A stretch of DNA of 33,738 bases from Candidatus Parcubacteria bacterium (GTDB lineage: Bacteria > Patescibacteriota > Patescibacteriia > Buchananbacterales > SURF-54), in NCBI GenBank assembly GCA_003599635.1, contig QZIX01000015.1, positions 1 to 33,738 of the forward strand, in the 5' to 3' direction. Below the pieces are notes generated by a model. The model searched no databases. It was not told the origin of the DNA and saw only the letters and a program-made list of their open reading frames with translations. A program made the translations under genes and the position numbers. Positions 10,853 to 18,428 of this stretch are shown here, in pieces. Numbering within the stretch: position 1 is the first letter of the stretch; each line of letters opens with the position of its first letter.

Positions 10853-11313
10853 GTGTAAACGTCTTGATTTTTGAACCAAATAGTTCAAAAAACGACCTTG
10901 TAAGTGTAAGTTATCCTTGCATATGCAAAAGGATAACTTGAAACACCGTATCTCCCTAGAAAGGAGGTGATCCATCCACAGCTTCCGCTACGGATGCCTT
11001 GTTACGACTTCGTCCCTGTCATCAACCCTACCTTCTGCCGCAAACTGCGACATTCGGGTATTGCCGACTCCCTTGACGTGACGGGCGGTGTGTACAAGAC
11101 CCGAGAACGTATTCACCGCGCCGAGGCTGATACGCGGTTACTAGCGATTCCAGCTTCATGAAGTCAGGTTGCAGACTTCAATCCGAACTGAGACCAATTT
11201 TGGTGGGATTAGCTCCATCTCGCGACTTAGCAACCCATTGTATTGGCCATTGTAGCACGTGTGTAGCCCAGGATGTAAGAGCCATGCTGATTTGACGTCA
11301 TCCCCACCTTCCT

Positions 11314-11414
11314 CCCCGCCCAAATTTTCCGAGCTACTCGGTTTGCAATAATTATATTTCAAACCGAGAGAATAAGAATAATCTTATCCTTATGTTTAGA
11401 AAATTTGGGCGGGG
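11314..11414 (-). other. 16S helix-40 expansion/IVS with 15-bp basal stem
   Basis: CCCCGCCCAAATTTT (11314-11328) / AAAATTTGGGCGGGG (11400-11414) with inner hairpins, placed between ACTGCC and GGAGGAAGG. Confidence 0.85.
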
Positions 11415-11474
11415 CAGTTTCCTATGAATATTTAACATAGAATAGGGGTTGCGCTCGTTACCCAACTTAATGGT

Positions 11475-11517
<43 letters not shown>

Positions 11518-11603
11518 GTGCACCCTCGAAGGCGGCCTTAATTTCTTAAAGCTTGCAGCACCATGTCAAACCCTGGTAAGGTTCCTCGCTTATTGTCGAA
11601 TTG

Positions 11604-11671
<68 letters not shown>

Positions 11672-12051
11672 TCCCAGGCGGGATGCTTAAGGAGTTATCT
11701 TAATAGAACGACACTGGTAGGGTCGAAACTACCAATGCCTAGCATCCATCGTTTACGGCGTGGACTACTGGGGTATCTAATCCCATTCGCTACCCACGCT
11801 TTCGTCCCTCACTGTCAGAACCGTTCCAGCAAGATGCTTTCGCATTTGGTGTTCTTGCCGATATTAACACATTTGACCGTTACACCGGCAATTCCACTTG
11901 CCTCTCCCGGTCTCGATCTTAAAAGTATTTCCCGCAGTCTCGCCGTTAAGCAGCGAGATTTGACGAAAAACTTTTTAAGACAGCTACGGACCCTTTACGC
12001 CCAATAAATCCGGATAACGCTTGGGGCACTCGTATTACCGCTGCTGCTGGC

Positions 12052-12370
12052 CCTGCACCATTTGCGCAGAACTTGGACTATACCACCATCCTGACAAATT
12101 GTCAGGCGTTCGGCGTTTGATAATACATATATTTTAATCTCGATGCACTATCTCATTTCGATCTTTATCGAAAATCAGTCTCTGAGGGGTCATACTCAAT
12201 AGAGCAGAGGACTTCCCTGCTGATTGGCAATGAATATTTAAGCAGCACATCATTGCTTTCCAGCATATGAGCCGAATTTTTCAATTCCGATTACTCGGAA
12301 AAGTCGCGCTACGGTTTTTTTATACGAGTTTACATTGCTTGCCCTGTCACCTTAATGGCGCAGGGCTGGC
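12052..12370 (-). other. Group I intron (~319 nt, no ORF) in 16S at ~E. coli position 516
   Basis: Interrupts GTGCCAGCAGCAGCGGTAA; contains P7-like TCAGAGACT ... GGTATAGTCC; 5' exon ends in U and intron ends in G. Junction ambiguous by ~6 nt because gccagc is repeated. Confidence 0.85.
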
Positions 12371-12810
12371 ACGAGTTTAGCAGCCCCTTATTCCTCAGGT
12401 ACCGTCATTAATTCTTCCCTGAGAAAAGATCTTTACACCCCGAAGGGCTTCTTCGATCACGCGGCGTCGCTCCCTCAGACTTTCGTCCATTGGGGAATAT
12501 TCTTGACTGCAGCCTCCCGTAGGAGTCTGGGCAGTGTCTCAGTCCCAGTGAGGCGGGTCGCGCTCTCACGCCCGCTACCCGTCATAGCCTTGGTGAGCTG
12601 TTATCTCACCAACTAGCTGATAGGCCATAGGCCCCTCCCGATCCGGCATCTTGCGATGCCTTTATTATTTCCTCTTGTGAGAAAATAAACCATCGGCTAT
12701 TAGCCCCGCTTTCGCGGGGTTATGGCCGAGATCGGGGCAGGTTACCAATGTGTTACGCACCCGTTTGCCACTGTAGCCTTGCGGCTACCGTTCGACTTGC
12801 ATGCCTTAGA

Positions 12811-12850
<40 letters not shown>

Positions 12851-12990
12851 AAAAAAGTTTATTACGAAAACCAGTAAAACGTAAGAATTTCTACTTTTAA
12901 CGAGATGTCAAAAATGAAATACTTAAAGATATTTTTAAAGGTGTATCCAAACCTTATAGAATTGACGTCTACTTTGCCGGTAAACCGGCA

Positions 12991-16295: not shown

Positions 16296-16845
16296 TTAAT
16301 TTATTGAAGTGTATTGCCAGTCATCAGACAAATGATGTTTTGAGAAGTTATAAATGGTGTAATGATAATAATTTTGCAGGTCTTTTACATTTCTAATAAT
16401 ATGGTCATAGTCAGATTTCTGCCATTTGAATTTATGAAATGGATTAAGGCTGCCACTTAAATCTATTTTTATATTTTAATAAATTTGGAGCTGTAAAATT
16501 TTTTGAAAAGCGATATGAGAATTGTTGACCCTGAAGGCGACATTCCGGAATGTCGCCTTCAATTACATAATTAATATCTCTTGACGACTCTTTTTTTAAT
16601 GATTGGATGACTTTTGAGATATTATATTTTTCACTCGCCTGTAATAATATATGCGCATGATTATGAAGAATGCAAAAACCGTATAATACAAAACTCTTTA
16701 ACTTCTGGCACAATAAAATTTCTTCAACCAATAAATCACAAAAAATTCTTTCCCTAAATAATGGAGAACTATTGTCTGTCTTTATAGTAATGAAGTAAAC
16801 GGCATTATCAATCTTGTAACGTTTTTGCGAGTTTTGATGCAACAT
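16296..16845 (-). pseudogene. REP-associated tyrosine transposase (RAYT, Y1_Tnp), frameshifted
   Basis: YFITIKTDNSSPLF, HNHAHILLQ (HUH motif), then after a +1 shift at ~16461-16472 DLSGSLNPFHKFKWQKSDYDHIIRNVKDLQNYYHYTIYN...DDWQYTSIN*. Confidence 0.85.
16532..16561. repeat. REP palindrome inside the RAYT coding sequence
   Basis: Perfect 30-nt palindrome tgaaggcgacattcc|ggaatgtcgccttca, translated as EGDIPECRLQ. Confidence 0.95.
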
Positions 16846-16953: not shown

Positions 16954-18195
16954 TCAGAATTTCAGGTCAAAATTTCTGACCTTGATGACAAAAGACAAAC
17001 CATCCCTGGTTTTCAGATTGTAAAGCTCAGTCACGAGGCTTTCTGGAACGGCAGTATCCGTATCAATCACATTAAAAACAATGTGCTCTTTGGTACGGTG
17101 AAGACCTTGGTCGGCGATATTTATACCCGCATCATAAAATGGTCCTGTTAGTATGTGGAGCGCGCCCGGCACATCTTTGTGCACCACAACCACCCGGTGG
17201 CTGCCCGGATTATCAAGCTCTTCGTTTGGATGCATCTTCGGCAGATTGACCGCATTGTCGACCTGGCCCCAGAGCCAATAGTTTAAAAACTGCCGCACAA
17301 TCGTCTTGGAAGAAGCTTTCTGTCCTTCCTCGGATTGACCTCCTATGTGTGGGGTCCAGATTACATTTTCCACATCAGGCGCCTCGGCGGCAACCGGCGG
17401 TTCAGAGTTAAATACATCAGCGGCAAAACCGCCGACTTTTTTTTCTTTTATGGCTTCAAAAACTTCCTGATGGTTGACGATGCCGCCGCGCGACAAGTTT
17501 ATTATCTTTACTCCTTTCTTCATCTGATTGATGGTGGCGGCGCAAATCATATTTCTCGTGCCTTCGGTAAGCGGAACATGCAAAGTGATAATATCGGCTA
17601 AAGCATAAAGTTCGCCGATGTTTTCAACGAAGCGACCGTTACTTTCCCATTTTTCCTTATCCACCTCGTAGATGACGACTTTGGTGCCGAAAGTTACTGC
17701 ATATTTAACGACCAGACTGCCAGTTTGGCCGTAGCCGATAACGCCGATTGTCTTGCCTCGAAGTTCCGTGCCGATAAACTTTTTCTTTTCCCATTTGCCC
17801 GACTTAATTGATCTATCGGCATCAATCACCCGACGCGACAGATTCAGCATCTGGGTAAATGCCAGTTCGGCAACAGCTACCGCGGTCTCGTTGCCTGCGT
17901 TGGCGACAACAATGCCCTTTTTTGTGGCGGATTTAACGTCAATATTGTCGATACCGACACCGGCGCGGCCGATTGCCAATAAATTTCTGGCAGCCTCCAA
18001 GTGCTCAGCCATAACTTTGGTACCGGACCTGACACCCAAAAAATCAATGTTGGATATCGCTTCAAGCAATTCGTTGTGGGACATGCTTTTATCTCTGGCG
18101 TCGACTACCATTTCTTCTCTTTGCATAAGCTCCTGGACTCCTGCCTTATGGAATCCGTCAAGTAAAAGAACGTGTGCTTTCTTGTTCCCGTTCAT
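16954..18195 (-). CDS. serA: D-3-phosphoglycerate dehydrogenase with C-terminal ACT-like domain
   Basis: IGRAGVGIDNIDVKSATKKGIVVANAG, TIGVIGYGQTGSLV, INLSRGGIVNHQ, WTPHIGGQSEEGQ; ACT-like C-term. Confidence 0.92.
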   Translation of the reverse strand: MNGNKKAHVLLLDGFHKAGVQELMQREEMVVDARDKSMSHNELLEAISNIDFLGVRSGTKVMAEHLEAARNLLAIGRAGVGIDNIDVKSATKKGIVVANAGNETAVAVAELAFTQMLNLSRRVIDADRSIKSGKWEKKKFIGTELRGKTIGVIGYGQTGSLVVKYAVTFGTKVVIYEVDKEKWESNGRFVENIGELYALADIITLHVPLTEGTRNMICAATINQMKKGVKIINLSRGGIVNHQEVFEAIKEKKVGGFAADVFNSEPPVAAEAPDVENVIWTPHIGGQSEEGQKASSKTIVRQFLNYWLWGQVDNAVNLPKMHPNEELDNPGSHRVVVVHKDVPGALHILTGPFYDAGINIADQGLHRTKEHIVFNVIDTDTAVPESLVTELYNLKTRDGLSFVIKVRNFDLKF

Positions 18196-18229
18196 CTCTT
18201 GTATCTCCTTTTTGTTGTAATGTACGAAG

Positions 18230-18268
18230 CTAAAAACAAAAACCAGCCGTTCTTGTGGAAGGCTAGCT
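18230..18268 (-). terminator. Attenuator terminator hairpin in the serA leader
   Basis: minus AGCTAGCC-ttccacaagaac-GGCTGGTT then TTTGTTTTT; lies between the leader ORF and the serA RBS. Confidence 0.75.
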
Positions 18269-18288
18269 GTTTTTACTTTAACGTGAAT

Positions 18289-18390
18289 CTATGCAGAAAA
18301 AAACCTTCCACCAAAGGCTGATGATGAACATGATGATGAGCAGATTATGCTCCAGCTTGATTGCGCGGAAAGGTATTTCTTAAGATTCAT
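18289..18390 (-). CDS. Serine-rich leader peptide MNLKKYLSAQSSWSIICSSSCSSSAFGGRFFSA
   Basis: 34-codon ORF (with stop) upstream of serA, 11 Ser/33 aa, including TCA TCA TCA TGT TCA TCA TCA. Confidence 0.75.
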   Translation of the reverse strand: MNLKKYLSAQSSWSIICSSSCSSSAFGGRFFSA

Positions 18391-18399
18391 ATTGTTGAT

Positions 18400-18428
18400 A
18401 TCTTATACCATCAATTTAAAAGTGTCAA
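18400..18428 (-). promoter_or_regulatory. serA operon promoter TTGACA-17-TAAGAT
   Basis: minus ttgacacttttaaattgatggtataagat; ATG of the leader ORF lies 9 nt after the -10. Confidence 0.65.

Follow-up and report, generated by a model that had tools for sequence, protein, structure and literature searches.

The short region upstream of serA raises the question of whether a serine-rich ORF, lying between a promoter and a gene for serine synthesis, acts as the leader peptide of a transcription attenuator. We examined this region within the window, the whole stretch of 33,738 nt analysed here; all window features below are on the minus strand. The gene itself, serA (16954–18195), encodes a 413-aa protein assigned as 3-phosphoglycerate dehydrogenase with an ACT domain (TIGR01327, E=1.5e-98), and its ATG at 18195 has an SD, AAGGAG, in front.

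A sigma-70-type promoter, TTGACA-17-TAAGAT, occupies 18400–18428 (TTGACA 18428–18423, TAAGAT 18405–18400) and is followed by the leader ORF MNLKKYLSAQSSWSIICSSSCSSSAFGGRFFSA (18289–18390), in which 11 of the 33 residues are serine, seven of them encoded by TCA. The putative control codons, TCA TCA TCA TGT TCA TCA TCA (18319–18339), produce the run TCATCATCATGTTCATCATCA, and two Cys codons flank the Ser run. Region 1 (18360–18380), which contains the first Ser codon, S8 (18369–18367), can pair with region 2, GTGGAAGGTT (18302–18311). Region 2 is the 5′ arm of an antiterminator, and its GGAAGG begins 18 nt 5′ of the leader stop codon. The 3′ arm is region 3, AGCCTTCCAC (18255–18264), which overlaps the 5′ arm of the terminator. 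Regions 3 and 4 form an intrinsic terminator, AGCTAGCC...GGCTGGTT plus a T tract (18232–18268; −12.0 kcal/mol), with 18268–18261 paired to 18248–18241. The promoter, the Ser ORF, the codon run, both antiterminator arms and the terminator had been proposed in an earlier sequence-only reading of the window, and all of them held, positions included; these elements are shown.

That reading omitted the probable leaderless nature of the ORF. The leader ATG lies ∼10 nt past the −10 box and there is no SD; therefore, the ORF is probably leaderless. We consider it likely that it is translated from a leaderless 5′ end, the start site and the translation of the leader being inferred and not shown.

Searches with cmscan gave no T-box covariance-model match and, across all Rfam 15 families, no match to the serC leader RF00517. 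The earlier remark that no T-box signature is present was thus upheld, and no other Rfam family matched.

The leader is not a chance arrangement, as judged by the occurrence of its codon run and by its folding stability relative to shuffled sequences. Among 451 ATG ORFs of 10–60 aa on both strands of the window, six identical residues out of seven were found in one, which is this leader ORF. Dinucleotide shuffling of the 317-nt intergenic region gave a six-of-seven Ser run in none of 5,000 shuffles, and a six-of-seven run of any residue in one of 5,000. The folding energy of the leader was −49 kcal/mol (z = −4.68), with equal stability reached in none of 200 shuffles. The pattern GGAAGGN{25,55}CCTTYC had no second occurrence across the 778-kb assembly beyond the window leader.

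Fold prediction indicated that the leader has the full three-state arrangement, with the alternative pairings 1:2, 2:3 and 3:4. The exclusivity of the 2:3 antiterminator and the 3:4 terminator, claimed in the earlier reading, held in these predictions; the third pairing had been omitted there. In this 1:2 hairpin, AGAAATACCTTTCCG (from 18380, within the leader ORF) pairs with GGTGGAAGGTTTTTTTCT (z = −2.4, p = 0.028), and the protector hairpin overlaps the control codons. Ribosome positions were imitated by blocking the bases where a stalled or terminating ribosome would sit. The free leader folded into the terminator (P(3:4) = 1.00). With the ORF occupied to 9 nt before GGAAGG, as in the stalled state, the antiterminator was favoured (P(2:3) = 0.96), and with the ribosome at the leader stop codon the terminator returned (P(3:4) = 0.94). 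S8 lies within region 1, and therefore early stalling would also free region 2. The mutually exclusive folds are shown in silico.

The serA leader is very likely a ribosome-mediated transcription attenuator tied to the supply of charged tRNA-Ser, a conclusion reached without expression data. In the proposed mechanism, transcription would begin with the ATG of the leaderless Ser-rich 33-codon ORF or immediately beside it. Where Ser-tRNA is scarce, the ribosome would stall on the Ser codons and hold region 1 off region 2; region 2, now free, would pair with region 3, and serA would be transcribed. A ribosome that reaches the leader stop codon would favour the 3:4 terminator, and an untranslated leader would adopt the 1:2 plus 3:4 form and transcription would end. 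Stalling and the response to serine are inferred. Every defining feature of a trp/his-type attenuator that can be tested in sequence is met, with the folding in silico only: a promoter with a Ser-rich short ORF, an intrinsic terminator between the ORF and serA, an antiterminator switched by ribosome position (in silico), a 1:2 protector hairpin over the control codons and, downstream, a biosynthesis gene for the amino acid of the leader.

The sequence-only reading would have been refuted had the Ser ORF or the alternative pairing been unconserved in relatives. This was not the case: in G004, a genome of the same order and a different family, serA is likewise preceded by a leader with a Ser run, by the region-2/region-3 core found in the window and by a terminator. 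The G004 leader was located via SerA homology and not by a pattern search. It has a TTGACA-16-TACGAT promoter, a leaderless ORF, MKFNLLMKSCQSSSLSSGLSNSGGRLVFT, the elements TCATCATCATTGTCATCA, GGGGGAAGGTTG and CAGCCTTTCACC, and a strong terminator. The locus is syntenic with that of the window (rpsP, leader, serA, khpA, with smc nearby in G004), and the ACT-type SerA of G004 has ∼30% identity to the window SerA. Eight of 29 residues of the G004 leader are serine, compared to the 11 of 33 in the window, and GGAAGG lies exactly 18 nt 5′ of the stop codon in both. Of the 19 Ser codons in the two leaders, 13 are TCA; in window genes the share of TCA is 18% (P = 2.6e-6). Conservation is therefore shown, between two genomes only, the window's own (G000) and G004. 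In G004 the 1:2 pairing was not significant, and at equilibrium with only the leader ORF blocked the terminator outcompeted the antiterminator.

No close relatives of SerA were found in the genome collections, the best having 41% identity; inside the class, the best identities were 34–39% over shorter stretches. An upstream scan of other ACT-type SerA/2-hydroxyacid dehydrogenases of the class and phylum revealed no Ser leader, and none was found before serB-serA fusion genes. Such fusions occur in Patescibacteria in G071 (L148:4969-7005), G399, G418 and G528; that of G071 joins HAD, 2-hydroxyacid dehydrogenase and ACT domains, and a class-V aminotransferase comes after it.

The window also carries an IS200-like Y1 transposase (E=2e-8) between serA and khpA (16444–16845, minus strand), which is missing from the syntenic position in G004. 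At 10960–12856, also on the minus strand, a 16S rRNA match extends over 1,897 nt against a model of 1,533 positions, and the 16S rRNA gene therefore contains ∼360 nt of insertion(s).

For both SerA proteins, the best-scoring models are phosphoglycerate dehydrogenase, with scores under the curated cut-off for that enzyme; the substrate is on this basis inferred to be 3-phosphoglycerate. No SerB-like HAD above cut-off was found in G000 (assembly 80% complete) or in G004 (97%). The remaining serine-pathway genes were not found in G000, where the sole strong class-V aminotransferase is NifS-like and lies beside an IscU-type gene.

Pattern searches for GGAAGG...CCTTYC pairs were run across the phylum, the core being fixed by the pattern. 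The first phylum pattern had too short a gap, 55–85 nt; it missed leaders of the window type and found those of family f157. Approximately half of the pattern matches were chance matches in coding DNA; the searches also returned unmistakable leaders. TTGACA is found upstream of the pattern-found leaders, as it is in G004; it was partly imposed by the design of the search, except for G004 and three Ile leaders.

In G001, which belongs to the window's own family, a Leu-run leader, MKPFSLKLNQNLKALLLLLLPFGGRFTYV, has TTTGGTGGAAGGTTT...AGCTAGCCTTTC and then a terminator behind it, all before a 2-isopropylmalate synthase gene (leuA; best model 2-isopropylmalate synthase, E=3e-81). The pair CTTTGGTGGAAGGTTT...AGCTAGCCTTCC takes the counterpart position in the window leader. 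Ile leaders directly precede citramalate synthase genes in G304 (L188; E=7e-196, above cut-off), G091 (L174; 1e-82) and G006 (L171; CimA type, 3e-118). In G725, from a different class, the leader in front of prephenate dehydratase is of the Phe type, MSARTFAFGFTSFSFSAGKEPMCLS, and the one in front of aspartokinase is of the Thr/Met/Lys type, MQRFVTMKKMTKTSLSGKDGC (L161, L168). The leader codons fit the amino acid of the downstream enzyme in all eight assignable leaders (exact permutation probability 0.0003), and this matching of codons to genes across the phylum is shown. Together with the conservation at serA it supports the attenuator interpretation of the sequence-only reading, of which the regulatory response and the transcription start remain inferred.

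Nine more leaders precede genes without an assignment and are left out of this count. Unassigned genes follow Ile leaders in G003 (L170), G013 (L184), G112 (L186), G209 (L175) and G326 (L187), Leu leaders in G574 (L159) and G614 (L158), and a Phe leader in G508 (L160). A Lys-rich leader with the same core, MEFNSRKLAVKKSKKGLIWRKVLVKL, precedes a 65-aa zinc-ribbon-like ORF in G045 (L177). The Ile-run leaders, from eight genomes, are leaderless and have the GGAAGG/CCTTCC core; several of the unassigned small ORFs behind Ile leaders could be Ile-related. Behind that of G112 is a lone 94-aa ORF (L152:7311-7595, minus) with a weak LeuA-dimer match (E=0.05), and on this slender basis it might be a stand-alone amino-acid-binding domain. 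Family f157, of a class other than the window's, contains leaders of this build with Phe, Leu and Thr/Lys/Met codons (G725, G508, G574 and G614).

We considered whether selection acts on the RNA or on the peptide. The reading frame of GGAAGG within the ORF (0, 1 or 2) differs between leaders, and in some it lies past the stop codon; therefore, it is kept as RNA and not for the peptide, whose sequence is unconserved apart from the codon type and a GGR end. Since the GGAAGG/CCTTYC core was set by the search pattern, it is no evidence for pairing. Outside the pattern, the 3:4 terminator hairpins of 16 leaders gave a combined Z of −10.5, and the 1:2 pairing a combined Z of −3.25. Covariation in the 2:3 flanks over all 16 leaders, from two classes, was equalled in 3 of 20,000 permutations (P = 1.5e-4). 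Inside the class alone it was not significant (P = 0.12), and it is thus not our main evidence.

A bolder reading is that a single modular chassis for leaderless attenuators is common to the Patescibacteria. It would comprise the leader ORF, GTGGAAGG near the stop codon, CCTTCCAC and a terminator, with control codons (Ser, Leu, Ile, Phe or Thr/Lys/Met) that were exchanged as it came to stand before different amino-acid genes, the window holding the serine version. We lean towards this reading, by a modest margin. The chassis may have arisen by common descent or by convergence on a good pairing core; we favour neither.

Of the alternatives, the one that survives best retains the attenuator and alters its signal, which would be Ser plus Cys, or growth rate, rather than serine by itself, with SerA not making serine. 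Its support comes from the two Cys codons at the Ser run, from the lack of a SerB-like HAD above cut-off in either genome and from SerA scores below the curated cut-off. Against it, the Ser content of both leaders is high (11/33 and 8/29) and phosphoglycerate dehydrogenase is the best model for both SerA proteins; we regard it as unlikely.

Two further alternatives have much less support. The ORF could encode a small functional protein, with the terminator limiting read-through and no amino-acid switch. In its favour, the frame is open and a promoter of its own precedes it. However, only the codon type and the GGR end of the peptide are conserved, other leaders have GGAAGG in any of the three frames or outside the ORF, and codons match the enzyme in 8/8 assignable leaders, leaving this explanation very improbable. 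Alternatively, the nascent chain could arrest the ribosome on sensing a drug or metabolite instead of tRNA charging, and the structure test indeed needs only a stalled ribosome, whatever the cause. In contrast, the codon runs (Ser, Leu, Ile, Phe, Thr/Lys/Met) differ according to the downstream gene, and there is a synonymous bias towards TCA; therefore, decoding is favoured over the nascent-chain sequence, and we give arrest very little credence. A T-box or metabolite riboswitch with an incidental ORF is all but excluded: a terminator/antiterminator does precede an amino-acid gene, and Ser T-boxes upstream of serA occur in Firmicutes, but Rfam gave no match at gathering or relaxed thresholds, T-box sequence is absent and what is conserved is the ORF together with the GGAAGG/CCTTCC pair.

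Attenuation through tRNA-Ser remains the preferred reading. If it is true, serine, which textbooks do not list among the attenuated pathways, gains a leader-peptide attenuator, and the highly reduced, mostly uncultured and regulator-poor Patescibacteria control amino-acid genes via ribosome-coupled attenuation; tight transcription–translation coupling and leaderless initiation would also be implied there. The shared core offers an annotation tool, in which leader codons predict the substrates of poorly annotated enzymes (leuA and cimA were separated in this way here) and show which amino acids Patescibacteria sense and make. The sequence-only reading knew of no leader-peptide attenuator for serine in this phylum, and in the limited open-access literature searched we likewise found neither this nor any leader-peptide attenuation in CPR/Patescibacteria. 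Judged by that literature, the new points are serine specificity without a T-box, the phylum, its leaderless initiation and the sharing of one core between leaders of different specificity.

Among known systems, the serC leader (RF00517) of Alphaproteobacteria is a putative attenuator before a serine-synthesis gene; the gene and the phylum differ from those here. In Bacillus subtilis sinR, TCN codons report serine shortage via translation speed (PMC3862929), the same readout as proposed for the window leader, whereas sinR acts on the level of SinR protein in a coding gene, without a leader peptide or terminator. The leader ORFs of Sinorhizobium trpL and of actinobacterial trp, ilv and leu begin at or near the transcription start, as proposed for the window; PMC7298713 and PMC11857589 are related. 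These systems involve other phyla and amino acids, and to our knowledge no core is shared between their leaders. The closest model is the enteric ribosome-mediated attenuator (trp, his, leu, thr, ilv and pheA; PMC1183508, which does not list serine), with its leader ORF of control codons, exclusive 1:2, 2:3 and 3:4 pairings and an intrinsic terminator before the gene. The window leader differs in its serine specificity, its single serA gene, its lack of an SD and its near-zero 5′ UTR, and the Patescibacteria leaders as a group differ in having one GGAAGG/CCTTCC core common to different amino-acid specificities.
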